Origin: a virus
DNA length: 22,674 nt
Reading direction: 5' to 3' (one strand)
IMG/VR virus record: IMGVR_UViG_3300021405_000367
Location: 1-22,674 of that record
The notes under the pieces were generated by a model. That model made no database searches, had not been told where the DNA came from, and saw only the letters and a list, made by a program, of their open reading frames with translations. This document shows positions 2,317-20,204 of this stretch, piece by piece; the first letter of the stretch is position 1, and every line of letters begins with the position of its first letter. Made by a program: the position numbers and the translations under genes.

Positions 2317-2346
2317 ATTATATTATAGAACCATATAGTCACTCAA
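2317..2346 (-). promoter_or_regulatory. Leftward sigma70-type promoter PL1
   Basis: On the minus strand TTGAGT (2346-2341), an 18-bp spacer and TATAAT (2322-2317). The upstream block TCATTTGGACTC resembles that of the other operon promoters. The -10 lies inside an inverted repeat GTTCTAT/ATAGAAC. It drives 2288 leftward to the ligase. Confidence 0.7.
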
Positions 2347-2384
2347 GAGTCCAAATGATAGTCGGTCTCTTTAATTTTTGGGTA

Positions 2385-2801: not shown

Positions 2802-3251
2802 TTAAGGCTCCGGATCCTTGGGGTGTACGTGCCAATCCTCGTTGGGGCCCCGCTTGAGGGTACTCGTAGCCACGTTTCGTACGTGTTGGTAGCGGAGATT
2901 CAAGTGCTTAGCAATCCGCTTGATCTCGAATTGTTCCGATACCAGATAGCGGATGCAAGCACTCTTAGTACGAAAGTTCTCCTTTAGCCACGAGAGTTGC
3001 GGCAAAGGCTTCAGAGGCATACCATCCTTGTCGAGCAACGGTGGCGTAGGCTCCTCGGGTGCCTCAGCGTCCTGAAAGGCTATGGCTTCGTGGAGCAAGG
3101 CTTGTTCGCCGCTGACAATTTCCGGCTTGATATCCTCACCGAATAGTTCTTTTAGAAATGGCTTGAAAGCCTTGGAGAGCTCTTGCTGCTCCTCAGCTCT
3201 CTGCGTCTCGAGCTCTAAGGCTCGAGGCTTACCTGTTTTACGTGCTAACAT
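2802..3251 (-). CDS. Helix-turn-helix protein, paralogue A (YQHVRNV family), 149 aa
   Basis: Two-part protein. Residues 1-90 are charged and probably disordered or helical (TPPLLDKDGMPLKPLPQ linker); residues 95-135 form a compact helix-turn-helix (IRYLVSEQFEIKRIAKHLNL, then YQHVRNV and TLKR). The same C-terminal module occurs in three other genes of this window. GAGG stands 5 bases before ATG 3251. A DNA-binding regulator role is inferred from the HTH pattern and the location in an early operon. Paralogue A has a longer tail after the LKR signature and has lost the proline of PLKR. Confidence 0.78.
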   Translation of the reverse strand: MLARKTGKPRALELETQRAEEQQELSKAFKPFLKELFGEDIKPEIVSGEQALLHEAIAFQDAEAPEEPTPPLLDKDGMPLKPLPQLSWLKENFRTKSACIRYLVSEQFEIKRIAKHLNLRYQHVRNVATSTLKRGPNEDWHVHPKDPEP

Positions 3252-3257
3252 GATGCC

Positions 3258-3512
3258 TCAGAATGGTATGTCGTCCGCGTTCTTGGGTGAATGTGCTTTG
3301 AGTACTGCGTTAAAGGCGTCGACTGCTCTCTTGTAGCGGAGCATATCCTTGGATTCGATGAAGATAGATAACTCGAAGGTGCTGTAGTCTTCGCCCGTGA
3401 TGTGACTCTCGCAGCGTAGCGACAACCAGTTGGTCGTGGTGCCCACACTTCCGAGGCTGAGGCTGACGTTTTTCACGTCGTGGATGTTAAAGTTACCGAT
3501 TCGTAGTCCCAT
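3258..3512 (-). CDS. Hypothetical protein, 84 aa
   Basis: Small beta-rich protein: the first 35 residues alternate polar and hydrophobic (MGLRIGNFNIHDVKNVSLSL), followed by one helix near the C-terminus. A strong AGGAAGGAA ribosome site precedes ATG 3512. It ends 6 bases before the HTH paralogue A, so the two are probably translated together. No motif or family is recognised. Confidence 0.75.
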   Translation of the reverse strand: MGLRIGNFNIHDVKNVSLSLGSVGTTTNWLSLRCESHITGEDYSTFELSIFIESKDMLRYKRAVDAFNAVLKAHSPKNADDIPF

Positions 3513-3542
3513 GGTTACGTTTCCTTCCTATTGCTGGTGTTG

Positions 3543-3791
3543 CTACAGTTTGTTGCTGAGGTCTATTTTCCATCCCTCCTTTATCAGGATGTCGCATATC
3601 TCGTTCGTCGCAGTTGTCACAACTTGTTGAACGTCTCCGAGTACCCAAGGTTTGTGGTCTCGTGTGTAGACAAGCCCTGGGCTAAGTATGTCGGAGACCT
3701 CCTCCCAGACATCTGCGTAGGTTAAAGGTTCGAACTCTTCGCGCTTACGAAGGCAGGCCTTGAGGTGAGTTTCTCCGAATCCTCCGCTCAT
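3543..3791 (-). CDS. Hypothetical protein, 82 aa
   Basis: Small acidic protein, predicted mostly helical, with TYADVWEEVSDIL in the middle and a hydrophobic-lysine C-terminus. ATG 3791 lies 3 bases after the TAA of the 49-aa gene and has only a weak GAAG ribosome site, so translational coupling is likely. Function unknown. Confidence 0.72.
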   Translation of the reverse strand: MSGGFGETHLKACLRKREEFEPLTYADVWEEVSDILSPGLVYTRDHKPWVLGDVQQVVTTATNEICDILIKEGWKIDLSNKL

Positions 3792-3794
3792 GAG

Positions 3795-3944
3795 TTAGCG
3801 CTTCACAGGTTCGAGTTCGCGTTCTTTCTCCCTCTTGGCTGGAGCGTGACGCCGTGGCTGAAACTCGGGCTCCGGAGTTTCCCTGGGGATCACCAGAGGT
3901 TCCGGAGGCCGATCTCCTACTTCTTTTACTGGTCCGATGTTCAT
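3795..3944 (-). CDS. Proline/charge-rich small protein, 49 aa
   Basis: Starts at ATG 3944, which overlaps the TGA of the upstream gene (ATGA), with a GGAAGAAGAGGAGAG ribosome site. Composition is dominated by Pro, Glu, Arg and Lys (for example RPPEPLVIPRETPEPEFQPR), so it is probably disordered. Tight packing between two genes, the ATGA overlap and the strong ribosome site support it as a real gene despite its size. It could be an interaction peptide or inhibitor; no direct evidence. Confidence 0.7.
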   Translation of the reverse strand: MNIGPVKEVGDRPPEPLVIPRETPEPEFQPRRHAPAKREKERELEPVKR

Positions 3945-4159
3945 GATGTACTCTCCTCTTCTTCCAGATGTTCCTCTATGACTAGGTGTTCGCTTAGTTG
4001 GATGTCGATGGTACCGTTATCGATAAGGTCATCGAACGCGGCGCCTAGGATTGCTACCGCTCGAGAACCTAGAGCAGCAGGCACTTCGTGCTCCTTAGCA
4101 ACATAGTAGTTAACGCTTATTCTGATCTCCTTAAGGAGGTCGCCGTTGCCGTTGCTCAT
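3941..4159 (-). CDS. Hypothetical protein, 72 aa
   Basis: Small acidic protein: an N-terminal strand (LLKEIRISVNYYVAK), a helix (ALGSRAVAILGAAFDDLI) and an acidic C-terminus (EEHLEEEESTS). ATG 4159 follows the previous stop by two bases, with TATGGAG upstream. It is in the operon started by PL2. No family recognised. Confidence 0.73.
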   Translation of the reverse strand: MSNGNGDLLKEIRISVNYYVAKEHEVPAALGSRAVAILGAAFDDLIDNGTIDIQLSEHLVIEEHLEEEESTS

Positions 4160-4161
4160 GG

Positions 4162-4938
4162 TTAGTATGCTCCATACTGTTTAGTGTCGAAGTAACATAC
4201 TTCCACATCAGGGTATGCTCTCTCGAGCTCGAACCCCAATTCTTGTGTGGGAGCGAGCAGTTTGCGGATGATCACCCATTCCGCTCGCCATCCCAAAGTT
4301 CCCAAGACGAAGCGACCAAACCTTTCGACGATTCCCGTCACGGGGAGGAGGCCGAGATCGGGACAGTCATCTCCGCCCCATATTGCGACCTTCCAATCGT
4401 GGGGAACGAGCTTAGCGTGGATACCTTTGTGGCTTCGGAGAGCTTCGGAGGTATCCCAGTCTGTTACGCGGAGTTCTGGGCCTTCCCAGAAGGCTTGGTA
4501 AGCAGGCGAAACAAGAACCTTTATCTCTGGATCCCACTTCCAGCCTCTCCAGCCTAAAGTGTTGGGTGCTTTTGGATCCGGTATAGACGCCCACGAGCGT
4601 TTACCTAAGATCATTGCTCTGATCTGGCGGAAAGCTATCTCTTGCTCGGCTATTAACTTAGCAGTGTCGTAGGCTAGAGTCACCTTCTTCGCAAGATCAG
4701 TGTCTCGAAGTACGAGAGCAATAGCTTCCTTCTCTAGATCCTGCGGGAACGGATACAACGAGCGAACGAATGCCTCTAGCGAATCTACATTCACTAGCCC
4801 AGTCGCACTCGATATGCACTTGGCCGAGGAGTTGGCTAGGATGTACTGAAGCGAAGCGAGCTGTGACCGCACCCTCGCTTTGCGTATCCTCTCCACTACG
4901 TATGCTGGCCGAGGCTCTTCTGTCACTAGGCACCCCAT
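4162..4938 (-). CDS. Hypothetical protein, 258 aa, first gene of PL2 operon
   Basis: Largest gene of the early-type region. Residues 1-110 are helical; the middle contains WGWRGWKWDPE-like tryptophan repeats (about residues 125-140); the C-terminal 90 residues form a mixed domain ending in LGFELERAYPDVEVCYFDTK, which resembles small Rossmann-like or nuclease-type cores only in general pattern. It is directly downstream of PL2. ATG 4938 has a poor ribosome site; GTG 4926 is an alternative. The leader contains TTTGACCAAAT (4955-4965) and two copies of GACGTTGTTT (4944-4953, 4971-4980), possibly operator sites. Function unknown. Confidence 0.72.
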   Translation of the reverse strand: MGCLVTEEPRPAYVVERIRKARVRSQLASLQYILANSSAKCISSATGLVNVDSLEAFVRSLYPFPQDLEKEAIALVLRDTDLAKKVTLAYDTAKLIAEQEIAFRQIRAMILGKRSWASIPDPKAPNTLGWRGWKWDPEIKVLVSPAYQAFWEGPELRVTDWDTSEALRSHKGIHAKLVPHDWKVAIWGGDDCPDLGLLPVTGIVERFGRFVLGTLGWRAEWVIIRKLLAPTQELGFELERAYPDVEVCYFDTKQYGAY

Positions 4939-4994
4939 CGATGGACGTTGTTTCTTTGACCAAATGAAGTGACGTTGTTTTTTGGCACAATTAT

Positions 4995-5023
4995 ATTATA
5001 CATCATTTTTTGTGGTCAATCAA
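4995..5023 (-). promoter_or_regulatory. Leftward sigma70-type promoter PL2
   Basis: Minus strand TTGATT (5023-5018), 17-bp spacer, TATAAT (5000-4995). The upstream block reads CATCATTTTGGACG, then TTGATTGACC, nearly the same as PL3-PL5. It lies 27 bases downstream of the stop of 5050-5307. Confidence 0.78.
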
Positions 5024-5049
5024 CGTCCAAAATGATGGGCGACCTAGAT

Positions 5050-5307
5050 TTATTTTTTGGTCCGCGTGGCTTCCCGGTTTGGTTTGGGTTTCGCGGCTGC
5101 TTCGCGGGCGACATCGTCAGACGTTCGAACTTCGCGCCTCTCGACGCGAACGATTCGCCACCGTACGCGAAGCTTAAGGTTATGCAGAGCGAAGTATTCT
5201 GCCCCTGCTTGCTTTGCACACGAGAAGATAGGGCGGCGGCCGATGATCTCTGTGTTCACAGTGTTGCTACCTCGGTCGACGAACACTTCGTATCTAACAT
5301 CCGACAT
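5050..5307 (-). CDS. Hypothetical basic protein, 85 aa
   Basis: Short protein with a beta-rich N-terminal half (VRYEVFVDRGSNTVNTEI) and a basic C-terminus rich in Arg, Lys, Ala and Pro, probably nucleic-acid contacting. ATG 5307 has GAGG 8 bases upstream; a TATAAT-like sequence overlaps the start codon itself, so it is unlikely to be the working -10 for this start. It stands alone between two intergenic control regions. Function unknown. Confidence 0.66.
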   Translation of the reverse strand: MSDVRYEVFVDRGSNTVNTEIIGRRPIFSCAKQAGAEYFALHNLKLRVRWRIVRVERREVRTSDDVAREAAAKPKPNREATRTKK

Positions 5308-5328
5308 TATAGTACCTCATGACACACA

Positions 5329-5341
5329 TTTTTGGTCAAAA
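5329..5341 (-). promoter_or_regulatory. Single TTTTGACCAAAA box upstream of 5050-5307
   Basis: Minus strand TTTTGACCAAAAA, the same box that occurs in tandem at the structural-gene promoters (13546-13567, 20129-20150, 20242-20263). It lies 22 bases before ATG 5307. No well-spaced -35/-10 pair is visible around it, so its role as operator or -35 region is unclear. Confidence 0.4.
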
Positions 5342-5421
5342 GATGGTCCCCTCTTGGGGTGGGGAGGGGGAAACAACACAGAGTTTCAAGAGGCTCAATT
5401 GTGCCCCCTCCGACTCATTGC

Positions 5422-5682
5422 TCAGTTCCTGTAGTTGGCCTTCTTGCCTAGAAAGTAGAGGTCACCCTGCTTCTCTAGGCGACCAGCCATCACGAGCGCT
5501 CTCATGATAGCTTCGAACTGTGGAAGGTCAATCCCCAGCTTCTCCTGCATTACCGTATACAGGACTGAGCCCGGAGCGCCTCCGGTGCTACCTACCGCAA
5601 CGGCTTCCACGAGCGCATCGAGGATCTCCTCGATCAGCCGGCGTTTCTCGTCAAGATTCAGATGACTCGTCTTTATCTTCAT
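5422..5682 (-). CDS. Hypothetical protein, winged-helix-like, 86 aa
   Basis: Residues 8-35 form an acidic-basic helix (LDEKRRLIEEILDALVEAV); residues 44-78 (VLYTVMQEKLGIDLPQFEAI, then MRALVMAGRLEKQGDLYFL) fit a small winged helix: helix, recognition helix, then a beta wing. The domain call is by pattern only. GGAG lies 9 bases before ATG 5682, and the start overlaps the end of 5651-5956 by 32 bases. Possible DNA-binding regulator. Confidence 0.7.
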   Translation of the reverse strand: MKIKTSHLNLDEKRRLIEEILDALVEAVAVGSTGGAPGSVLYTVMQEKLGIDLPQFEAIMRALVMAGRLEKQGDLYFLGKKANYRN

Positions 5683-5956
5683 TGTCTAAGCTCCCACTCA
5701 TGTTCTCGTAGGTGTTGCGGGTTGCGAAGCGGACTCCGTCGGAGAAGATTGGGGAATCTTGCCCCTTCATAGCGTTGAGACACAACGCGAAGTCCTCGAA
5801 GAGCCGGCGATAGGCAGGAAGATCCTTACGATCGTGTCCGTCCCATCCTTGGTGTTCAGACTCCAAAGCCCAATGGACGAAGGAAGCTCCTACCTCCTCG
5901 GTGGATCTCTGGCGCATCGCTTCGGGCAGTGTGCTTAGTACTGGTTTTGTACTCAT
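5651..5956 (-). CDS. Hypothetical protein, 101 aa
   Basis: Acidic helical protein with ASFVHWALESEHQGWDGHDR and FEDFALCLNAMKGQDSP, and an acidic serine-rich C-terminus. AGGAGT is 12 bases before ATG 5956. It lies downstream of the hairpin at 5999-6020. No recognised family. Confidence 0.72.
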   Translation of the reverse strand: MSTKPVLSTLPEAMRQRSTEEVGASFVHWALESEHQGWDGHDRKDLPAYRRLFEDFALCLNAMKGQDSPIFSDGVRFATRNTYENMSGSLDNEDKDESSES

Positions 5957-5998
5957 GTGTGCGTATACTCCTGATCGTTCCTTGTATCCTACGGGAAT

Positions 5999-6020
5999 AG
6001 GGGAAGCCTTCGCTTCCCCT
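5999..6020 (-). terminator. Perfect 9-bp intergenic hairpin
   Basis: AGGGGAAGC and GCTTCCCCT flank a 4-base loop, just after the stop of HTH paralogue B. No good U-run follows on the minus strand, so it may be an attenuating or processing hairpin rather than a full terminator. Confidence 0.6.
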
Positions 6021-6040
6021 AAGTGCTTTTGGTTGGGTTG

Positions 6041-6493
6041 TTAGGAGGCCTTGCGCTTCAGCGGCTGGTTGAGCACGTTGCGCACGTGCTGGTAGCGGAA
6101 GGGGAACTTCCTTCCTGCCCCGAAGCGAGCTTCCATGATCTTCGCGATCGCCGAGACTTTAAACCCCTGACGCGACAATTCCCGCATCCGCTCGGAGGTG
6201 TTCGAAGCCTTACTGAAGGCCTCCTCGTCGACGCGATGCTCCTGCGGCAGTGTAGGCTGAGGTGCAGGCGCCGCAACCGCTAAGTTGCCTTCGACTTCCG
6301 TCTGTAGTGGCGCTGGCGCCTCAACGATCTCGCCGTCGGGGGTGAGAACGTGATCCGTCGTCACGAGATCTTCGACGGTGAGCGTAGGCGGCAAAGGCAG
6401 TGTAAAGTTCTCCGCCTGCTCGGCATTCAACTGAGCGAGGTTCTCGATCACTTCGCTGCTGCCGCTCTCGTTTGTCCTGTTGTGCTTACCCAT
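6041..6493 (-). CDS. Helix-turn-helix protein, paralogue B (YQHVRNV family), 150 aa
   Basis: The N-terminal 95 residues are Pro/Ala/Glu-rich and probably disordered; the C-terminal module at 98-148 carries MRELSRQGFKVSAIAKIM, then YQHVRNV and PLKR. Compared with the other three copies it has an 8-residue insertion (EARFGAGRKF region, about residues 121-131) between the two HTH helices. ATG 6493 is chosen over ATG 6523 because GGAG lies 10 bases upstream of it. It probably binds DNA; target unknown. A 6-bp hairpin (6537-6553) precedes it. Confidence 0.78.
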   Translation of the reverse strand: MGKHNRTNESGSSEVIENLAQLNAEQAENFTLPLPPTLTVEDLVTTDHVLTPDGEIVEAPAPLQTEVEGNLAVAAPAPQPTLPQEHRVDEEAFSKASNTSERMRELSRQGFKVSAIAKIMEARFGAGRKFPFRYQHVRNVLNQPLKRKAS

Positions 6494-6591
6494 AGTGTTT
6501 GTACTCCAGTTCAGGGATCTCAATCGATCTCATCAGCACACGCTTCACGTGTGGAGGGGACGCTTCACAGCGCGCCCTTTCGATCTGTTAA

Positions 6592-6819
6592 CTACTCCTG
6601 GATGAGCTTGGATAGCTCTTCCCAAAGCCGTTCGATCTTCATGTTCCTTTCGTATTCTGCCCGCGGAATATCCGTAGGATCGGTAGGGAAGTTGTTCTCG
6701 ATCATGTTTGCGAACAACTCCCTTGGGTTAACGCTGATTCGGAGGCTGGAAACGACGAGTTCTGTCGTTCCTGGATCGCGATTATCCAGTTCGCACTGAG
6801 CAGTAACCGTCCAAGCCAT
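6592..6819 (-). CDS. Hypothetical protein, 75 aa
   Basis: Beta-rich N-terminus (MAWTVTAQCELDNRD, then TELVVSSLRISVNP) and a charged helix at the C-terminus. ATG 6819 overlaps the TGA of the upstream gene, so translation is coupled. It is part of the three-gene PL3 operon. Together with its neighbours it looks like one of several small beta-strand proteins of similar design; function unknown. Confidence 0.72.
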   Translation of the reverse strand: MAWTVTAQCELDNRDPGTTELVVSSLRISVNPRELFANMIENNFPTDPTDIPRAEYERNMKIERLWEELSKLIQE

Positions 6820-7040
6820 CAATTGCTTCCGCTTCCACTGTCCTTGAGCACCGTCCTGGAATATGTAACCTTCCAGAACGGATCGTAGTCGGAGATCTCG
6901 AACTGTAAGGCCATCCGAACCTGATCAAGCAGGAGCATTACCCTCGCGACGTTCGCCTCCTCGCATTCGACCTGAAACCGAACTCGGTTACGTTGAGCCT
7001 TCTTAGGCTTCAACGTCTGCACTTCCTGCAACTGTGTCAT
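6819..7040 (-). CDS. Hypothetical protein, 73 aa
   Basis: Start ATG 7040 is selected because GGAGAAGGA lies 6-7 bases upstream and the preceding TAA is adjacent; the longer frame to 7172 only overlaps the neighbouring gene. The protein has a basic start (LKPKKAQRNRVRFQVEC), a helix (VARVMLLLDQVRMAL) and a C-terminal strand pair. Function unknown. Confidence 0.72.
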   Translation of the reverse strand: MTQLQEVQTLKPKKAQRNRVRFQVECEEANVARVMLLLDQVRMALQFEISDYDPFWKVTYSRTVLKDSGSGSN

Positions 7041-7041
7041 G

Positions 7042-7248
7042 TTATTCCTTCTCCGTGTATGCGATCGTAACCGTGAGCTGATCAGGGGTCTTACCCTTGA
7101 TGGCGCTCTTCCGAATGTAGAGAACGCCGATCGCCGCTCCAAGCGTGTTGGGGTACTCGGCCAACAAACCACCTCCGAGCTCTTCGTGGTAACGAAGTGC
7201 TCCCGAGGTTTCGCGTACGAATCGGAACTTCTTTGTAATCTCGAGCAT
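7042..7248 (-). CDS. Conserved-looking small beta protein, 68 aa
   Basis: The pattern KFRFVRETSGALRYHEE, then IGVLYIRKSAIKGKTPDQLTVTI, is one I associate with a small protein family common in phages and in bacterial accessory regions; the function is unknown there too. First gene after PL3, with GGAAAC upstream of ATG 7248. Predicted all-beta, about six strands. Confidence 0.75.
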   Translation of the reverse strand: MLEITKKFRFVRETSGALRYHEELGGGLLAEYPNTLGAAIGVLYIRKSAIKGKTPDQLTVTIAYTEKE

Positions 7249-7301
7249 GATGTTTGTTTCCGGTTGGTAGGTTTAAGTAGGTATTTTTGTTATTATGTTC
7301 T

Positions 7302-7331
7302 ATTATATATTAGTCCTTGATGTTCAATCTA
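7302..7331 (-). promoter_or_regulatory. Leftward promoter PL3
   Basis: Minus strand TAGATT (7331-7326), 18-bp spacer, TATAAT (7307-7302). The upstream block CATCATTTTGGCCG and the downstream AGAACATAATAACAAAA are shared with PL4. Confidence 0.75.
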
Positions 7332-7344
7332 CGGCCAAAATGAT

Positions 7345-7373
7345 GGGTGACCGAGGATATTTGATGGTCACCC
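7345..7373 (-). terminator. Hairpin ending the 8.9-7.4 kb operon
   Basis: GGGTGACC and GGTCACCC form a perfect 8-bp stem with a 13-base loop. The stop codon of gene 7368-7589 is inside the upstream arm. It is followed on the minus strand by ATCATTTT, which doubles as the upstream block of PL3. Confidence 0.6.
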
Positions 7374-7589
7374 GTAACGAGTGGTGACTTTACCGACGCT
7401 CCAGCCGAACGATTCCCAGCGGCCGACTGTGGGCTTCTGGACAGAGGTGAGCCCGAAGGTTGTCGACTTCTCTAGGTGCTCCGCTAGGTACGTCACATCC
7501 TCCTGTCTCGTAGGCCAACACTGATCGTACCTCAGCATGTCGGCGGGAAAGTAGTAATTCCCAGTGACTTCGTAGGAATACAGTCTCAT
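7368..7589 (-). CDS. Hypothetical protein, 73 aa
   Basis: Small aromatic-rich protein (MRLYSYEVTGNYYFPADML start; GRWESFGWSVGKVTTRYG end). GAGGAG lies 8 bases before ATG 7589. It is the last gene of the PL4 operon; its stop codon lies within the terminator-like hairpin. The 84-bp gap upstream holds two hairpins (7606-7654). Function unknown. Confidence 0.73.
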   Translation of the reverse strand: MRLYSYEVTGNYYFPADMLRYDQCWPTRQEDVTYLAEHLEKSTTFGLTSVQKPTVGRWESFGWSVGKVTTRYG

Positions 7590-7605
7590 CGTTTGGTCTC
7601 CTCAG

Positions 7606-7654
7606 CAGAGGCTTTACCTCTGGACGCTACAAGGTACTTACCTCCCTGTAGCGT
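7606..7654 (-). other. Structured intergenic RNA element (two hairpins)
   Basis: Perfect inverted repeat ACGCTACA/TGTAGCGT (7624-7654), whose interior contains a second near-palindrome AGGTACTTACCT, followed by CAGAGG/CCTCTG (7606-7622). Both fit in the gap between two cotranscribed genes. It may be an mRNA processing or stability element; no known riboswitch class is recognised. Confidence 0.5.
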
Positions 7655-7673
7655 TTCGACCTGCCTGTTCTTA

Positions 7674-8009
7674 TTACTTGGACGTGTTGTCTTGGTATTG
7701 GGCGCAACCTTTCAGGTGCTGATGCAGGTGCCCTGCGCAGACATTCAGACCACACCCGTTACAGTACGCCTGCACTCGACGCTTCACGCCAGTCTGTTTC
7801 ACGTCATCCCTCCTCAGGATGCGAACCATCGTGTCTCCGATGCATATCGTCGCTTCGAAGTCCCGAGGAATTGCCGAGTTAGGCTCGAGGCCGAACATAG
7901 GGAGGATTTCGTAGCTGCGTAGCTGCCATCCTTTACCATCGAGTCCTCGGAGGTTCTTCCAAGGCCCCTTCGTATGTGGGCACTCGTATGCTGCATTAGA
8001 TGCTCTCAT
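7674..8009 (-). CDS. Cys/His-rich hypothetical protein, 111 aa
   Basis: ATG 8009 is chosen because GGAGGAGAG lies 8-9 bases upstream. The C-terminal 35 residues hold CNGCGLNVC (C83, C86, C91) with H94, H97 and C102, consistent with one zinc-binding knuckle. The N-terminal part is mixed alpha/beta (GWQLRSYEILPMFGLEP). It resembles zinc-containing phage accessory proteins in general; function unknown. Confidence 0.73.
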   Translation of the reverse strand: MRASNAAYECPHTKGPWKNLRGLDGKGWQLRSYEILPMFGLEPNSAIPRDFEATICIGDTMVRILRRDDVKQTGVKRRVQAYCNGCGLNVCAGHLHQHLKGCAQYQDNTSK

Positions 8010-8010
8010 G

Positions 8011-8232
8011 TCAGTACTCTCCTCCGCGTTCGGCTCTGTCTGCACACGCGTTGCAGTATGCGTAGTCAGGTCGCAGCCTTACCATCTGGCCGCACCCCTG
8101 ACACTTCTTGCGTCGGCTCTCCTTCTGCACTTGATGATAGAACTCGACGTCGGACTCGTCGTTGATCTCGTAGTGCCCGAAGTTGTCGTCGTAGTACGTA
8201 GCGTTCAGGCTTCTGCCTCGTCGCCATGCCAT
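8011..8232 (-). CDS. Zinc-ribbon protein, 73 aa
   Basis: CQGC (44-47) and CNAC (60-63) form a short two-knuckle zinc ribbon after a charged, aromatic N-terminus. AGGAAGG precedes ATG 8232. It is followed two bases later by the next zinc-knuckle gene, so the two neighbouring Cys-rich proteins may work together. Nucleic-acid or protein binding is inferred. Confidence 0.75.
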   Translation of the reverse strand: MAWRRGRSLNATYYDDNFGHYEINDESDVEFYHQVQKESRRKKCQGCGQMVRLRPDYAYCNACADRAERGGEY

Positions 8233-8247
8233 CGTTTCTTTTCCTTC

Positions 8248-8469
8248 CTAGTCGTTTGGATACTTACGCTCGAAGGCAACTACCTTCTTCTCGATCTCGC
8301 TGGCTGCACGCTTGATCGCGTCACGTGCAGCCTCCTCGAACGTCTTGTAGCCGATATGCTTCAGCTCGTAAGTACCTCGCTCGATGTGGCGCAGGTATTC
8401 GAAGGCTTGCACCTTACGCTCCTTTACCCACTGGCGAAGTTCTTCCGCCGCTTCGGCTTCCTGCGTCAT
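8248..8469 (-). CDS. Hypothetical helical protein, 73 aa
   Basis: Almost entirely alpha-helical and highly charged (ELRQWVKERKVQAFEYLRHI; AARDAIKRAASEIEKKVVAF). GTAGGAAG is the ribosome site before ATG 8469. It could be a coiled-coil or helical-bundle adaptor. No family recognised. Confidence 0.73.
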   Translation of the reverse strand: MTQEAEAAEELRQWVKERKVQAFEYLRHIERGTYELKHIGYKTFEEAARDAIKRAASEIEKKVVAFERKYPND

Positions 8470-8479
8470 AGCTTACTTC

Positions 8480-8674
8480 CTACTTGATGTCTACGATGTC
8501 TTTCCCGAGCTGAATAAGATCGCTGGGATCTCCCTCGTGGATCGCTTTGCACAGCGCTTCATGTAGCTGCTCGTGCGTTATCGTGAACGCCTTGTGGACT
8601 TCGAAGGCCATAACGATTACGCGCTCCAATACCGATCCTTCGTCGTCTTCACGGTTGGTTACCTGGTTTGCCAT
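8480..8674 (-). CDS. Hypothetical helical protein, 64 aa
   Basis: Small acidic helical protein (VLERVIVMAFEVHKAFTITH; LHEALCKAIHEGDPSDLIQL). The ribosome site is a GGAAGGAAGGAAG run before ATG 8674. Member of the PL4 operon; function unknown. Confidence 0.73.
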   Translation of the reverse strand: MANQVTNREDDEGSVLERVIVMAFEVHKAFTITHEQLHEALCKAIHEGDPSDLIQLGKDIVDIK

Positions 8675-8694
8675 GTTATATGCTTCCTTCCTTC

Positions 8695-8904
8695 CTACTT
8701 CCGATGCTTAACGATGCGGATCCAAGCGTCCTGATTCAGAACGATTGGGAACGAATGCTGGGGAAGATGCGCGCAGATGTCGTCTTCCGCAGCTTCGTGG
8801 TCGATTTCGTCTGGCAGCGTAAGCTCCAGCGTGATCTCGTCGCCATCCGCGTTCTGTAGGTATACGCTGAACTTGCTCTGCGTTACGATTGTTCTTTTCT
8901 TCAT
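8695..8904 (-). CDS. Hypothetical protein, 69 aa, first gene of PL4 operon
   Basis: Beta-rich, acidic: KFSVYLQNADGDEITLELTL then LPDEIDHEAAEDDICAHL. ATG 8904 is preceded by AGGAAAGG and promoter PL4. It may be a small ubiquitin-like or DNA-mimic protein in charge pattern, but that is speculative. No family recognised. Confidence 0.73.
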   Translation of the reverse strand: MKKRTIVTQSKFSVYLQNADGDEITLELTLPDEIDHEAAEDDICAHLPQHSFPIVLNQDAWIRIVKHRK

Positions 8905-8942
8905 GATCGCGCCTTTCCTAGGTACTTTTGTTATTATGTTCT

Positions 8943-8972
8943 ATTATATATTAGGTATCGATGGTCAATCAA
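8943..8972 (-). promoter_or_regulatory. Leftward promoter PL4
   Basis: Minus strand TTGATT (8972-8967), 18-bp spacer, TATAAT (8948-8943), followed by AGAACATAATAACAAAA as in PL3; upstream TATTTTGGCAC. Confidence 0.78.
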
Positions 8973-8986
8973 GTGCCAAAATAGAT

Positions 8987-9021
8987 GGCGCCCGTTAGAA
9001 TTTTTTGGTCCAACGGGCACC
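8987..9021 (-). terminator. Terminator-like hairpin before PL4
   Basis: GGTGCCCGTT pairs with AACGGGCGCC (10 bp, one G-U pair) around a 15-base A-rich loop, followed by ATCTATTTT. It sits 13 bases after the stop of 9034-9312 and directly upstream of the PL4 block. Confidence 0.65.
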
Positions 9022-9033
9022 ACGTTTAATCTA

Positions 9034-9312
9034 CTACGATCCAGCCCATTGCTTCTTGAGCTTCTCTACTTCCGTCGCTACTCGAGCACTTTCCCATCCT
9101 GGAACTTTCTTCCAGTACGCAAGCTTACGTTCGCAGATCGTAAGCTCCTTCCTCGCCTGATGGAGTTCGCTTCGGTCTTGGCTCCTCTTGGTTATGAATT
9201 CCAGGAAGAGGTAGTTGGAGTAGTGCTTAAGGTAAGCCTTAGTAGGATTGATGTTGAGAGCGCTTCGACCGTGGAACGGAGGTTTGTTAAGATCGTCGTA
9301 GATGATGAACAT
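9034..9312 (-). CDS. Hypothetical protein, 92 aa
   Basis: The N-terminus looks structured (MFIIYDDLNKPPFHGRSALN); residues 45-90 form a long charged helix (ITKRSQDRSELHQARKELTI; CERKLAYWKKVPGW), a probable coiled coil. AGGAAC is about 9 bases before ATG 9312. Second gene of the PL5 operon. Function unknown. Confidence 0.73.
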   Translation of the reverse strand: MFIIYDDLNKPPFHGRSALNINPTKAYLKHYSNYLFLEFITKRSQDRSELHQARKELTICERKLAYWKKVPGWESARVATEVEKLKKQWAGS

Positions 9313-9330
9313 GAGCGTTTGTTCCTAGTG

Positions 9331-9356
9331 CTGGAGAGGCTTGATTGCCTCTCCAG
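9331..9356 (-). terminator. Perfect 10-bp hairpin between two genes
   Basis: CTGGAGAGGC and GCCTCTCCAG flank a 6-base loop between 9370-9582 and 9312. On the plus strand it is followed by TTTT; on the minus strand no U-run follows. It may be a leaky terminator or a processing hairpin lowering expression of 9034-9312. Confidence 0.55.
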
Positions 9357-9369
9357 TTTTGGAGGCGGC

Positions 9370-9582
9370 TTACTTCACGAGGTAGTGGGTGAATGCTAGG
9401 TTGCGATTGTAGAGACCCTCACGCTTCCAATACTCGCTCAACGCCCAGATCGAGTTGGCGTAGAGCAGTGCGTTTGTCAAGGGGTGAACGAATCCAATCT
9501 CGCTCCAAGCGTTATCACGGGCGAGTTGGTTGATCGTTTCTGCATGAGGGGCGTCTTGAGCTGTTATCGTGTTCGTGTTCAT
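9370..9582 (-). CDS. Hypothetical protein, 70 aa
   Basis: Helical protein with several Trp/Tyr (LLYANSIWALSEYWKREGLY). AAGGGAAC is 7 bases before ATG 9582. First gene after promoter PL5. No membrane segment is obvious; no family recognised. Confidence 0.73.
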   Translation of the reverse strand: MNTNTITAQDAPHAETINQLARDNAWSEIGFVHPLTNALLYANSIWALSEYWKREGLYNRNLAFTHYLVK

Positions 9583-9623
9583 GAACTGTTCCCTTACTAG
9601 GTTGTTTTTGGTTCTACAATTCT

Positions 9624-9653
9624 ATTATATATTAGGTTCTAATAGTCAATCAA
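9624..9653 (-). promoter_or_regulatory. Leftward promoter PL5
   Basis: Minus strand TTGATT (9653-9648), 18-bp spacer, TATAAT (9629-9624); upstream TTATTTTGGCCG block as in PL2-PL4. It lies about 40 bases before ATG 9582. Confidence 0.78.
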
Positions 9654-9659
9654 CGGCCA

Positions 9660-10270
9660 AAATAAAGGTCACCCGGTAGAATTTTGAGGGCGTCAGGGGC
9701 GGGAATTCTGAAAAAACGAAGATTGAGAAGGGTGTGGCGTGGGGGTATTTGTTTAACTTATTGAAATCATTCAGAAAAAGTGGTATGATTAGTTTCCTTT
9801 TGTCGATTTTCAGAAGATCCCGATGAGGTAGGAATTCTCCACGGGAATTCCGTGCTGTCCGACATAGCAAAGACCCTTCTCGATTTTGGTTTTTCATAAA
9901 AGGTTGCCTTAGTATTCTTTATAAGGATGTCTTTATAACTCTTTGATTTCATTAAGGAATATTAGTATGATTAGTATTAGTAGAGTAAAAGAGAGAGAGT
10001 TTCAAAACAGCAGTAGGCCAGGAACAGGCACAGTGTTCCTACAAAAAGCGATTTATAATAGTTTGAAGCGAAAATACTAATAATACTAGGGGAAGTACTT
10101 TTTCTTAATGATTTCAACGAGTTAAAAAGATAGCCTCCCGATTTTTATCAGATTTTATCAAGTACTCCCGATTGGGAACAACTATTTTTGTCCTTCTTAT
10201 GTTTCGCGGCGGTACGAATGTATGTACGGCGGAGCTTGTTGCCCTCTATGCCCTCTAGGACCTCCTGGAG
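9660..10270. other. AT-rich intergenic stretch with inverted repeats
   Basis: About 600 bases without a convincing gene. It holds GGAATTC/GAATTCC (9831-9851) with a further GGGAATTC at 9701, AGGAACA/TGTTCCT (10020-10040), and two CCCGATT copies around 10136-10180 separated by AT-rich sequence. Minus-strand frames here (9646-9897, 9767-9952) run into promoter PL5 or lack ribosome sites. Candidate regulatory or replication-origin region; no DnaA-box cluster was identified. Confidence 0.45.
9967..10080 (+). CDS. Possible small rightward ORF, 37 aa (weak)
   Basis: ATG 9967 has AAGGAA 7 bases upstream and encodes a 37-residue basic peptide (MISISRVKEREFQNSSRPGT start). It is the only plus-strand candidate in the left 13.6 kb. 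No well-spaced promoter was found, and the frame contains the inverted repeat 10020-10040. It could equally be chance in AT-rich sequence. Confidence 0.22.
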   Translation: MISISRVKEREFQNSSRPGTGTVFLQKAIYNSLKRKY

Positions 10271-10272
10271 GT

Positions 10273-10299
10273 AAAAAGAAAGGAGCCGAAGCTCCTTTC
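10273..10299 (-). terminator. Strong leftward intrinsic terminator
   Basis: Minus strand GAAAGGAGC, loop TTCG, GCTCCTTTC, then TTTTT. A 9-bp stem with the very stable UUCG loop and a U-run, 18 bases after the stop of 10317-10418. Confidence 0.9.
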
Positions 10300-10315
10300 C
10301 TTCCTTCCTTCCTTC
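10295..10315. repeat. (TTCC)n tetranucleotide repeat
   Basis: About five TTCC units between the stop of 10317-10418 and the terminator. On the transcript it reads GGAA repeats, resembling reiterated ribosome sites, but no start codon follows. It is prone to slippage. Confidence 0.7.
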
Positions 10316-10316
10316 C

Positions 10317-10418
10317 CTAGCACCAGACGATGTTGGACCAAGGCGCGATCCCAGCCCACGCTAGGCGGTAGTCACACTCGTACTTCCACGGTACGAAGCG
10401 CGTCCATGTTATGGTCAT
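10317..10418 (-). CDS. Trp-rich mini-protein, 33 aa
   Basis: ATG 10418 follows the TAA of the upstream gene, with GGAAAG 11 bases upstream, and ends just before a strong terminator. Five Trp in 33 residues (WTRFVPWKYECDYRLAW, then APWSNIVWC). The frame extends further upstream to 10502 but overlaps the neighbouring gene. Possibly a small membrane-active or inhibitor peptide; no evidence beyond composition. Confidence 0.55.
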   Translation of the reverse strand: MTITWTRFVPWKYECDYRLAWAGIAPWSNIVWC

Positions 10419-10434
10419 TAGCTCTGTCTTTCCG

Positions 10435-10608
10435 TTAGTGCTGGTGGTGACGCTGCCGCAGGTGTTGGATTTCCTTGCGTTGTTCCTGGAGCATAAGAGC
10501 AAACTGACGTTGGCGCATCGCGCGGATGAGTTCGAGCGTGTGGTACTCAGGCTCGGGCTGAGTGAGCTCCAAGTACCATCTACTGACCTTCTTCAGAAGC
10601 TTGGTCAT
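10435..10608 (-). CDS. Hypothetical protein, 57 aa
   Basis: Basic helical protein with a long Gln/Arg-rich helix and a His-rich C-terminus (RQRHHQH). ATG 10608 is selected by GAGGAAG 6 bases upstream; the frame's ATG at 10662 falls in the intergenic hairpin and is unlikely. It may bind nucleic acid by charge. Function unknown. Confidence 0.65.
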   Translation of the reverse strand: MTKLLKKVSRWYLELTQPEPEYHTLELIRAMRQRQFALMLQEQRKEIQHLRQRHHQH

Positions 10609-10652
10609 GACTAGTTCTTCCTCGCTTGGATATGATCGAAACGCTCTACGTA

Positions 10653-10682
10653 GGGGGAGCAAGGTTTGCCCTGCTCCTCCCC
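10653..10682 (-). terminator. Intergenic hairpin after HTH paralogue C
   Basis: GGGGGAGCA pairs with TGCTCCTCCCC (one bulged base) around a 10-base loop. It sits between 10701-10919 and 10435-10608 and has no U-run on the minus strand, so it is probably an attenuating or processing structure. Confidence 0.5.
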
Positions 10683-10700
10683 TGTTGTTATGGCGCCGAA

Positions 10701-10919
10701 CTAGCCGCGCTTCAAGGGTCGGTTGATCACGTTATTAGCGTGCTGGTACTTGATGTCGAGCACCTTCGCGATCTGCCCAGTCGTGAACGAGAGACTGTGG
10801 AGAAACCGGATCTGATCGGAAATGGTCGTGCACTGCATCAGGTGCTCCTCCATCTCGTCCGTCAGGGTTACCTGGAAGGTGGGGTTGTTCTTCTTCAGAC
10901 TGTTCGAATAGTTTGACAT
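10701..10919 (-). CDS. Helix-turn-helix protein, paralogue C (YQHVRNV family), 72 aa
   Basis: Short form of the family: N-terminus MSNYSNSLKKNN (shared with paralogue D), a helix SDQIRFLHSLSF, then IAKVLDIKYQHANNV and PLKR at the end. The arginine of the core YQHVRNV is replaced here (YQHANNV). AGGAAG is 8 bases before ATG 10919. A perfect hairpin occupies the predicted 5' end of its mRNA (10948-10969). Probably a DNA-binding regulator, inferred from the HTH. Confidence 0.8.
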   Translation of the reverse strand: MSNYSNSLKKNNPTFQVTLTDEMEEHLMQCTTISDQIRFLHSLSFTTGQIAKVLDIKYQHANNVINRPLKRG

Positions 10920-10947
10920 GTCGTTACTTCCTATCGGTTGGACTAAT

Positions 10948-10969
10948 GAACCTAGGTTATTCTAGGTTC
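10948..10969 (-). promoter_or_regulatory. Hairpin at 5' end of paralogue C transcript
   Basis: GAACCTAG and CTAGGTTC form a perfect 8-bp stem with a 6-base loop, starting about 9 bases downstream of the -10 of PL6. It could be an operator for the encoded regulator or a 5' stabilising hairpin. Confidence 0.55.
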
Positions 10970-10977
10970 ATAATAAT

Positions 10978-11006
10978 ATAATACATCATTTTCCTGTGTT
11001 CCACTA
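10978..11006 (-). promoter_or_regulatory. Leftward promoter PL6 (weak -35)
   Basis: Minus strand TATTAT (10983-10978) with TAGTGG 17 bp upstream. The spacer end AAAATGATG is identical to that of PL2. The -35 is poor, so an activator or an extended -10 may be needed. Confidence 0.5.
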
Positions 11007-11019
11007 GAGGTTATTTGGC

Positions 11020-11234
11020 GGTTCTTAGGGCAAATATTAGGGGCGACAGCTTGTAGCTTAGCGAGACGCTTCTCAGCGGTCTCACGGTCGCGCGTGCGTA
11101 CGCGATAAAAAACTGGGAATTGGTATTGCCGGCGATCACAGAGCCGCGCGGTCGCAGCGCGCAAAACGCGGAAAGCGGTAGAAAATTTTGCCGGCGGCGC
11201 CCGGTTTGCGCGGGCCTGCGAAGCAAAATAAGAA
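11020..11234. other. GC-rich island without convincing gene
   Basis: About 200 bases rich in CG dinucleotides (GCGCG, CGCGC, GCCGGCGG), unlike the AT-rich flanks. A minus-strand frame (10952-11164) is open, but it has no ribosome site and runs through promoter PL6 and its hairpin. Another frame continues as a C-terminal-like relic. It could be a decayed gene or host-derived insert. Confidence 0.4.
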
Positions 11235-11256
11235 GGAGGGAGCTTTCACTCCCTCC
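11225..11256 (-). terminator. Leftward intrinsic terminator
   Basis: Minus strand GGAGGGAG, loop TGAAAG, CTCCCTCC, then TTCTTATTTT. It stands 9 bases after the stop of 11265-11405. Confidence 0.85.
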
Positions 11257-11264
11257 CGTTCGAC

Positions 11265-11405
11265 CTAGAGGATCGCGCCTTCGAAGTACAACCGCTCGGA
11301 CGAGGCGTAACTCTCGAGCTCGCGCCAACGGCGGAGCGCGGCGAGGTATGTAGGGAAGCTCTCAACGCTTTCGAAGGCTCCTAGTACGAACCTGACTTTG
11401 TACAT
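11265..11405 (-). CDS. Hypothetical small protein, 46 aa
   Basis: ATG 11405 preceded by AAGGA 10 bases upstream; stop TAG directly followed by an intrinsic terminator. The sequence starts MYKVRFVLGAFESVESFPTY and continues with a basic helix (LAALRRWRELESYA), compatible with a small alpha/beta fold. It is GC-rich compared with the next gene upstream. Function unknown. Confidence 0.68.
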   Translation of the reverse strand: MYKVRFVLGAFESVESFPTYLAALRRWRELESYASSERLYFEGAIL

Positions 11406-11425
11406 TTTTCTTTGTCCTTCTATCT

Positions 11426-11462
11426 AATTAAAGAAAGACTCTATAGATTTCTCTATAGAGTC
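11426..11462 (-). terminator. Leftward intrinsic terminator after paralogue D
   Basis: Perfect 11-bp stem GACTCTATAGA/TCTATAGAGTC with GAAA loop on the minus strand, then TTTCTTTAATT. It lies 14 bases after the stop of 11476-11694. Confidence 0.85.
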
Positions 11463-11475
11463 TCTATATTAAATT

Positions 11476-11694
11476 CTACTTACGCTTCAAAGGCCTTTCT
11501 AATATACCTCTAACGTGTTGATATGAAATACCTAAGATATTTTTAATCTGAGTTCTTTGATATCCTTCTCTATCTAGAAATCTAACTTGATCACTTACTG
11601 TAGTCATTCTACGTAAACTATCTTCTTCCATAGAAGTGATAGACTTTTGAGTTACTGTTTGATTCTTCTTGAGATTCTCTGAATAATTAGACAT
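11476..11694 (-). CDS. Helix-turn-helix protein, paralogue D (YQHVRNV family), 72 aa, AT-rich
   Basis: MSNYSENLKKN N-terminus, SDQVRFLDREGY, IKNILGISYQHVRGI and PLKRK, aligned without gaps to paralogue C over the whole length. AGAGGAAA is 6 bases before ATG 11694. It is a single-gene transcription unit with its own promoter (PL7) and terminator. Codon use is conspicuously AT-rich (TCT, AGA, ATA, ATT) compared with the rest of the window although the protein is so close to C, suggesting a separate origin. It probably binds DNA and may regulate itself. Confidence 0.82.
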   Translation of the reverse strand: MSNYSENLKKNQTVTQKSITSMEEDSLRRMTTVSDQVRFLDREGYQRTQIKNILGISYQHVRGILERPLKRK

Positions 11695-11715
11695 TTGATT
11701 TCCTCTTTTTATATT

Positions 11716-11737
11716 ATAGAAAGACTATTCTTTCTAT
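11716..11737 (-). promoter_or_regulatory. Hairpin at 5' end of paralogue D transcript
   Basis: ATAGAAAGA and TCTTTCTAT, a perfect 9-bp stem with a 4-base loop, just downstream of the -10 of PL7. It occupies the same position relative to the promoter as the hairpin of paralogue C but has an unrelated sequence. Confidence 0.55.
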
Positions 11738-11744
11738 GAATATA

Positions 11745-11773
11745 ATACTATAATGATTTTAGGTAAAAATCAA
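11745..11773 (-). promoter_or_regulatory. Leftward promoter PL7
   Basis: Minus strand TTGATT (11773-11768), 17-bp spacer, TAGTAT (11750-11745). The flanks are very AT-rich. It drives paralogue D. Confidence 0.6.
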
Positions 11774-11873
11774 GCATTATTTTGCTATTTGTCATATAAT
11801 ATTTATATAGTGAATTGAAAAATTTTAGGAAATACTTTTTGTTTTTCGCAAAAAAGCGGGGTGTGGGTATCGT

Positions 11874-11969
11874 CCCAAAATTTTGCCAGTTAACCGTTTG
11901 AACCAAGGCACACTGTGACGTGCGGAGTTCCGCCCAAAATTTTGGTATCTGACCGTTGTACCATAGGCC
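11874..11969. repeat. Two direct repeats with CCCAAAATTTTG core
   Basis: Copies at 11874-11909 and 11933-11969 share CCCAAAATTTTG, then an ACCGTT segment at equal distance and a final AGGC. Copy 2 contains the perfect palindrome CCAAAATTTTGG. They lie in the 3' flank of 11993-13447 and 100-220 bases upstream of PL7. Either a protein-binding site pair or a duplicated fragment; the core resembles the CCAAAAT of the operator boxes. Confidence 0.6.
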
Positions 11970-11992
11970 ATGTCCTAGCATAGCATAGGCAG

Positions 11993-13447: not shown

Positions 13448-13474
13448 AATCATCCTCCAACGATCGTATTTCTG

Positions 13475-13545: not shown

Positions 13546-13567
13546 TTTGACCAAAATTTGACCAAAA
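13546..13567 (+). repeat. Tandem operator boxes upstream of PR
   Basis: Two exact copies of TTTGACCAAAA at 13546-13556 and 13557-13567, 8 bases before the -35 of PR. The same pair, slightly varied, precedes PL9 and PL10. The 11-bp period places both boxes on one helix face. Confidence 0.75.
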
Positions 13568-13575
13568 TAATTGTG

Positions 13576-13640: not shown

Positions 13641-14975
13641 ATGAAGCTCCAACCTGCTGACATTGACAAGCTCATAGCCCAAAACCGTCCGAAGCCGACG
13701 AACATCCGGAGCGCGGAAGACTACGTCAGTGAAAACGCCCAAGCGCGTGACGACTTCGTGACGAGTCTCACCTCATTCGAGAGCGCGGCTACGGCCCGCT
13801 ATGGCGAGACCCTCCCCAGAGCCCCACGTAGCTTGGGCACAATCATCCCACCCAGCGGCGCGACACTCCCGCTCTCAGGCGAAACCGAAACTCACCACGA
13901 GACCACAACTGACCCTAGCACGGAAGTCCCTGCTACTGCTGCTGGGTCGCGGGAACTAGGGGTGCCGGCCACCAGCCATGGCAGCCCACCCCCACTAGAA
14001 CTCGAAAGCCTCCTGGACGAAGACTTCGACCCGAATCTGCCTAGGGCCCTCCGCAACATCAAGCTCAACGAGATCGAATCGAGAGCCGATCTCGTCCGCA
14101 ACCTCACGAAAAACCTTCCCCTCAACGAATTCCAACTCCCCCGCTTCATCTACCGAAGCGATCTCCTCGACTGGACGATCTTCGCGCAAACTCCCCCCGA
14201 CTACAAGCTGATGGAGGAGTATCTCGACAACAGCCAGCTCACCCTCAACTACTCCGAAGGGTACCCAACGCTACCCGATGGATCCCCTTTGTGGGGCAAG
14301 TTCGGCTGGGAGACTCAGGATGAATACTCGGCCTTCACCGAATACTGCACCCTTCCGGGGATGCGCTCGTTGGCCAAGCTGACCCAAACCCAAACCCAAG
14401 CTCCTATGACGTTGCTCACGGAGTGGTTCCACGAGCGCTACTGGGGGCTCCGCTCTAAGTGTTTCGACATGATGAGGGCTATTCACGCAGCCAAACAGCG
14501 TGAACAGCGCATTATGGCCTGCGAGGACAACCACTACCTCGTGGCAGAAGGCCTTCTCGCGAAGCTCAAGGGCATCGAGGACGGTGTCGAGTGGGAACAG
14601 CTCAAAGCAGAGCCCGAGAAGTACGTGAAGGTGCTCGAAACCATCATGAAGCTGCAACGCATGGCGCTTGGTCTCACCACCATGGGCCAGCAAGGCGGGA
14701 GCTCGCGCGAACTTAGAGCCGAAACCATCGAGATGTCGATGCGTCGCATCACGAATCCAGAGACATACCAGCTGGAAAGCCCCGACAGAATCAAAGCCAT
14801 TACTCTTCAACAAGGCGTATCGCTCACCAATCCCAACGTGCCTACCGACGGCATCAATGTGCGGAAGCTGCTTAAAGACCCTGCAGCGCTAGCATCCGCG
14901 CAAGAACTCGTCATCCGTATGACGAGAGCCACGGAGATCAGCCATGCAAACCCCAACGATAGCGACGATAGTTGA
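13641..14975 (+). CDS. Putative small terminase subunit-like protein, 444 aa
   Basis: First gene of the packaging operon. Residues 55-130 are Pro/Ser/Thr-rich and probably disordered; about residues 225-315 carry DEYSAFTEYCTLPGMRSLAK, then WFHERYWGLRSKCFDMMRAI and a long basic-acidic helix. This order (W/F..Y..LPG.RS, a weak HTH, W..R...YD-like segment, helix) is seen in small terminase-like DNA-recognition proteins. At 444 aa it is longer than typical small terminases (150-250). Small-terminase identity rests on this pattern and on being upstream of the large terminase. A scaffold-like or regulatory role remains possible. Ribosome site weak (AGCGGA). Confidence 0.6.
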   Translation: MKLQPADIDKLIAQNRPKPTNIRSAEDYVSENAQARDDFVTSLTSFESAATARYGETLPRAPRSLGTIIPPSGATLPLSGETETHHETTTDPSTEVPATAAGSRELGVPATSHGSPPPLELESLLDEDFDPNLPRALRNIKLNEIESRADLVRNLTKNLPLNEFQLPRFIYRSDLLDWTIFAQTPPDYKLMEEYLDNSQLTLNYSEGYPTLPDGSPLWGKFGWETQDEYSAFTEYCTLPGMRSLAKLTQTQTQAPMTLLTEWFHERYWGLRSKCFDMMRAIHAAKQREQRIMACEDNHYLVAEGLLAKLKGIEDGVEWEQLKAEPEKYVKVLETIMKLQRMALGLTTMGQQGGSSRELRAETIEMSMRRITNPETYQLESPDRIKAITLQQGVSLTNPNVPTDGINVRKLLKDPAALASAQELVIRMTRATEISHANPNDSDDS

Positions 14976-15293: not shown

Positions 15294-15467
15294 ATGCCTA
15301 AGGGTTTGCTGTTCTGGATCATCTACGTTGTCTGCCTCGTGCTCTGGTTAGTGGCTGACTTCGGCGGTGTGTTTGGCGGATATGGCCACCTCGCTGGAGG
15401 CGGTATCGTCGACTTCATCCTGATCGGTCTGCTTGGTTGGGGTATCTTTGGGGCTCCTATTCAGTGA
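15294..15467 (+). CDS. Small membrane protein, 57 aa, two helices; holin-like candidate
   Basis: ATG 15294 has AGGGGAA 5-6 bases upstream. Two hydrophobic segments (about residues 4-20 and 38-52) are joined by a Gly-rich loop (FGGVFGGYGHLAGGG). The end WGIFGAPIQ resembles other phage mini membrane proteins found near packaging and lysis genes. Two membrane segments and a short length are compatible with a class II holin, but no endolysin is in the window. Its TGA overlaps the GTG start of the large terminase. Confidence 0.68.
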   Translation: MPKGLLFWIIYVVCLVLWLVADFGGVFGGYGHLAGGGIVDFILIGLLGWGIFGAPIQ

Positions 15468-20119: not shown

Positions 20120-20204
20120 GAGGAATTATTTCGGTCAAATTTTGGTCAGGCAATGGTGGCCTCTTCAAAGCAGTTGTGTGGTTCTTGAAAAACCGGAAAG
20201 AAGT

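Follow-up and report, generated by a model that had tools for sequence, protein, structure and literature searches.

The window analysed here is a whole IMG/VR virus record of 22,674 bases, which belongs to a tailed phage by its terminase and portal genes. The four open reading frames (ORFs) of the original prediction were confirmed, all on the minus strand. They encode helix-turn-helix (HTH) proteins, called A to D below, and lie to the left of the packaging genes:

2802..3251, minus strand: HTH protein A, of the long type (149 aa), with the HTH at residues ~94-135 followed by the tail GPNEDWHVHPKDPEP
6041..6493, minus strand: HTH protein B, starting at the ATG at 6493 (150 aa); by ORF and profile recovery
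10701..10919, minus strand: HTH protein C, of the short type (72 aa); by ORF, profile recovery and AF2 model
11476..11694, minus strand: HTH protein D, of the short type (72 aa), in an AT-rich island (31.5% GC); by ORF and profile recovery
11993-13453, minus strand: 486-aa gene between D and terS (phrog_5935, 1.4e-5)
13641..14975, plus strand: terminase-small-subunit-like gene, terS (phrog_6299, 7.5e-6)
15437..16987, plus strand: terminase large subunit (phrog_38, 7e-77)

Where the window has the 486-aa gene, its relatives mostly have just a short intergenic region between the HTH gene and terS. The D region (11400-11990, minus strand) has 31.8% GC versus 52.6% for the whole window, which suggests either a recent import or an AT-rich island. 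No near DNA matches to the window were found among sequenced phages; a near twin, 3300050821_015002 (29.7 kb), was found in the IMG/VR profile scan.

That A to D share one C-terminal HTH module, of about 40 residues, is borne out by leave-one-out profiles. When these HMMs were scanned against the 528 stop-to-stop ORFs of the window, every omitted copy was found (E-values of 9e-11 for A, 4e-11 for B, 5e-17 for C, and 1e-14 for D), with the next best ORF at 0.07, so the modules recover one another as had been predicted. With the window rows omitted, an HMM made from relatives only found exactly the same four (A 2e-22, B 3e-19, C 1.5e-19, D 6e-18); none of them came up with an HMM whose columns had been shuffled. 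The recoveries in both directions indicate the family is real. In pairwise local alignment, A to D score 9 to 34 s.d. higher than shuffled sequences, and for no pair did any of 2000 shuffles match the real score. Profiles over the 528 ORFs did not find a fifth copy.

C and D align end to end without gaps and A carries an extra tail after the HTH, both as predicted. The insert in B, put at 8 residues in the original prediction, is actually 10 residues long (IAK-IMEARFGAGRKFPFR-YQH versus IAK-VLDIK-YQH). It precedes the recognition helix, and the long N-terminus of B is proline-rich. YQHVRNV had been given as common to all four; it is intact in A and B, but C has YQHANNV and D has YQHVRGI, the recognition helix having drifted in both. 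Among 31 short members of the family, S, R, Y, and Q are invariant and YQHVRNV is nearly so. The module carries positive charge.

The structure of C was predicted with AF2 from a 40-row alignment. The model is a confident predicted HTH (pLDDT 82.8 overall, about 90 over the module) with helices at residues 21-29, 33-42, 47-54, and 58-66, a fold that a DNA-binding regulator would be expected to have. An initial single-sequence model was poorer (pLDDT 71) and was discarded. Fold matches in the PDB are weak (Z 4.5-5.5 for SIRV1 ORF55, ParB, KorB, the N-terminal HTH of the G20c TerS, and a resolvase, with sigma region 4 also matched weakly) and are at the level expected of any small HTH. Searching solved structures by sequence returned just designed repeat proteins and chance matches, which were rejected.

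No family in Pfam, NCBIfam, or PHROGs covers the module, with nothing above curated cut-offs and no convincing PHROGs match; D matches phrog_7067 'terminase small subunit' weakly, at 1.3e-3. The homeodomain-like families CENP-B_N and HTH_23 of Pfam (5e-4 to 0.07) and Cbp1 of NCBIfam (NF040595; 5e-5 to 3e-3), all scoring below the curated cut-offs, have a three-helix HTH like that of A to D. Cbp1 binds CRISPR repeats. We found no literature naming the motif. We place A to D in a family of small HTH proteins of the homeodomain-like (three-helix) kind, hitherto undescribed. Rhizobium phage RR1-B encodes a protein, RHYG_00019, with a short stretch of HTH similarity (E 0.03); it lacks YQHVRNV and has a very long tree branch (5.7). 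From its annotation and position we read it as a Mor/C-type late activator as in Mu-like phages.

The module is also carried in 23 bacterial loci, mostly from Alphaproteobacteria and Chloroflexota, where it is mostly N-terminal to an AbrB/MazE-looking domain. In two loci tested by Pfam, that domain matched PF04014 (1.7e-8) and a PIN gene was directly next (PF01850, 1.4e-12). The same ~40-residue module, including RYQHVRNVL, is therefore found in HTH-AbrB/MazE antitoxins beside PIN toxins (VapBC-type). In these antitoxins the module is fused to the AbrB/MazE domain and the toxin gene follows, whereas the phage copies are without both and, unlike the antitoxins, come in ordered sets. A to D have no PF04014 match and no adjacent toxin gene, and were rejected as AbrB/MazE (VapB) antitoxins. 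In Sphingomonas (L066, 5974-6591) and Erythrobacter (L068, 5950-6603) the module precedes another domain, which looks like GIY-YIG; its library match is weak and to UvrC alone. The best evidence that the family binds DNA is that its module is the N-terminal domain of AbrB/MazE antitoxins, and DNA binding by A to D is supported by this homology together with the positive charge of the module. The N-terminal domain of one AbrB-type antitoxin class is a mobile module that phages have as well.

To survey the phages, IMG/VR was scanned with a YQH-motif profile, which gave 48 loci. The TerS-like gene of the window is present in 47 of the 48 records and TerL in 39; scanning of whole records found a family match in 51 of 51 phage records. 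Records over 40 kb mostly have 2-4 copies, usually in a cluster of about 10 kb or less. In nearly all records terS has the first HTH gene as its divergent neighbor, and the HTH array of the window is likewise divergent from its TerS-like gene, with the 486-aa gene intervening. As the HTH scan had used the YQH motif, we repeated the scan from TerS. A TerS alignment across the whole group is too diverse for scanning. Starting from TerS, the module turned up in all contigs whose sequence on the divergent side was long enough (31 of 31 by our own count), and L112 gave copies with altered helices (YQHVRNT and YQFVRNV).

The only cultured close members found are the Brevundimonas phages vB_BpoS-StAshley and MaInes (69 kb), with three copies each. 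As in nearly all records, their first copy is divergent from the TerS-like gene; the later copies are on the opposite strand, and the records label them 'hypothetical proteins'. StAshley protein UTC29982.1 is a typical member of the family. The paper reporting the two phages makes no mention of helix-turn-helix proteins (PMC10070969). The phage group carrying the family is large and almost uncultured. It would gain a recognizable early-control module that has no family in the libraries searched, with several 'hypothetical proteins', including those of the two cultured phages, explained at once.

Constant adjacency to terS could also mean that the A to D family are packaging accessories, small-terminase-like DNA recognition subunits, and not transcription regulators. 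The match of D to phrog_7067 and the presence of the G20c TerS N-terminal HTH among the fold matches are in keeping with such a role. However, the HTH genes are oriented away from the packaging genes in early-type operons, there are several paralogs per phage, the neighboring gene is already TerS-like, and the TerS fold match is no better than that to ParB or a resolvase. We consider a packaging role highly improbable. With the same ordered set beside the packaging genes throughout the group, the HTH proteins are most likely shared early-gene regulators.

The usual order of copies, going away from terS, is at least one short copy (60-80 aa), the insert type where present, and the long type. 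In a tree of 117 modules and 53 columns, many forks of which are unresolved, A groups with the long copies of L007, L008, L009, and L044 (100/99) as one ortholog group, B is nearest to the insert-type copy at L007 3329 (97/86), and C and D group with one L112 copy (99/86). The chromosomal relatives are a group of their own (99/94), three phage rows included. By these groupings with other phages the paralogs are old: A, B, and C/D are separate lineages common to the phage group. As these lineages are spread across the group, a local expansion in the window phage was ruled out.

We also examined the repeated promoters. The box ATTTTGGNC has 8 copies in the window versus 0.77 expected, located at the leftward promoters, in tandem ahead of a consensus terS promoter, in front of D, and at 20.1-20.3 kb. 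In the repeated promoters it takes the form ATTTTGGNC...TTGATTGAC and overlaps the -35:

9645..9663, minus strand: boxed early promoter ATTTTGGCCGTTGATTGAC, TATAAT at 9629
8964..8982, minus strand: boxed early promoter ATTTTGGCACTTGATTGAC, TATAAT at 8948
7323..7341, minus strand: boxed early promoter ATTTTGGCCGTAGATTGAA, TATAAT at 7307, with the unit of B downstream
5015..5033, minus strand: boxed early promoter ATTTTGGACGTTGATTGAC, with the unit of A downstream
2338..2356, minus strand: box-like promoter ATTTGGACTCTTGAGTGAC, -10 at 2322
13549..13568, minus strand: ATTTTGGTC boxes in tandem, 11 bp apart, preceding the rightward promoter of terS (TTGACA-17-TATAAT)

Two more ATTTTGGTC boxes are in the right-hand region of the window, at 20139 and 20252 (plus strand). 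Boxed promoters, ATTTTGnC-nn-TTGATTGACC ... TATAAT, recur in the related phages with near-fixed spacing. C and D are box-less in the window while B and A are downstream of boxed promoters. Given these promoters and the promoter-like leaders that C and D have of their own, it is plausible that A to D are in four transcription units.

Across the group, we counted boxes before HTH genes with a recognizable -10, using a pattern in which the subgroup variant CTCTTGCTACCA is allowed as well. The box is found before 1 of 33 first (terS-adjacent) HTH copies versus 17 of 27 later copies (p 3e-7, which is optimistic because the pattern was defined post hoc on the same data and the phages are related). 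Of other -10-like sites, 74 out of 1520 are preceded by the box. The box, which overlaps the -35, may be a preference of the host sigma factor.

On balance, we favor with moderate confidence that the family is an early transcription-regulatory set of this phage group, probably binding at or beside the repeated promoter elements and ordering transcription. The short terS-adjacent copies, here C and D, would be made first from box-less promoters, and the longer copies, here B and A, from operons under boxed promoters. Family members would bind DNA at or beside the ATTTTGGNC/TTGATTGAC box and in the terS-array intergenic region, with the bound copies deciding in which order immediate-early, delayed-early, and packaging genes are transcribed. 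Most paralogs have nearly identical recognition helices, so that copies differing in their tails would be competitors for shared sites. The box-less C and D with the boxed B and A fit such a relay, in which the first-made HTH proteins act at boxed promoters; counter to it, C and D have the least typical recognition helices. It is doubtful that the paralogs, sharing one recognition helix but differing in their tails, are made one after another and take each other's place at the same boxes with a module that host antitoxins also have.

The original prediction was of a regulatory family acting on the repeated promoters. The related HTH family stands and the rest is partly supported, action on the repeated promoters indirectly so. 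We infer the regulatory mechanism, including the order of expression, DNA binding, the box as target, and activation versus repression. The outcome is a family of HTH proteins not described before, whose genes are ordered and syntenic throughout a phage group and whose role is likely regulatory.

The leaders of C and D both have a dyad:

10946..10971, minus strand: C leader dyad ATGAACCTAG-AATAAC-CTAGGTTCAT, 6 nt after TATTAT
11716..11737, minus strand: D leader dyad ATAGAAAGA-ATAG-TCTTTCTAT, just after the -10

Folded as RNA, the C leader has -15.6 kcal/mol (z -4.65) and the D leader a z of -2.6; no known RNA family was found for the leaders in Rfam. Dyads are about ten times likelier after -10-like sites that precede HTH genes (45 of 166) than after such sites elsewhere (44 of 1277; p 1.5e-21), and first and later HTH copies show no difference in them. 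Their position right after the -10 before many HTH genes, C and D included, is consistent with each short HTH protein being mainly an autorepressor on the dyad that starts its own transcript. TA antitoxins generally autoregulate, and long dyads with GTAACA/TGTTAC half-sites lie upstream of the antitoxin genes in L058 and L077, two of the chromosomal relatives. Across the phage group, however, the dyads vary widely in sequence, arm length (about 6-15), and center (3-14 nt) although the recognition helix is nearly invariant, and other early genes of the relatives are preceded by similar dyads. Mismatches are G.T more than A.C, 7 to 2, a small count but the pattern expected of an RNA hairpin. We find autorepression possible but unlikely, and rejected the leader dyads as operators, their sequence, arms, and spacers being too variable and non-HTH genes being preceded by them as well. 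The C and D dyads look like 5'-terminal hairpins of early mRNAs. Such dyads before non-HTH early genes are at L016 5363, L036 5571, L043 3918, L046 5370, and L047 5485.

The GTAACA seen in the dyads of L058 and L077 is part of a motif, [GT]TAACA, that is enriched in the terS-array intergenic regions (30 versus 15.8 in shuffles, 0 of 200), though as a shared hexamer it is a weak, post hoc motif. Alphaproteobacteria and Chloroflexota also have antitoxins with the same module and recognition helix, and together the two would suit phage HTH proteins acting on host functions, for example by binding chromosomal VapBC-type operators. Few of these phages have identified hosts, though, and the chromosomal copies form their own group in the tree. 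Action on the host is very unlikely in our estimate.

Two further candidates for control of the loci were discarded: CtrA, as TTAA-N7-TTAA does not occur in the loci, and a CCATC half-site, which occurs between terS and the first HTH gene about as often as expected (27 versus 26.3). In L021, L037, L043, L046, and L047, a conserved CCATCCTATTAGGATGG palindrome is located between the -35 and -10 upstream of the first HTH gene and is a candidate operator in this one subgroup. L037 and L047 have the variant CCATCCTATCAGGATGG.
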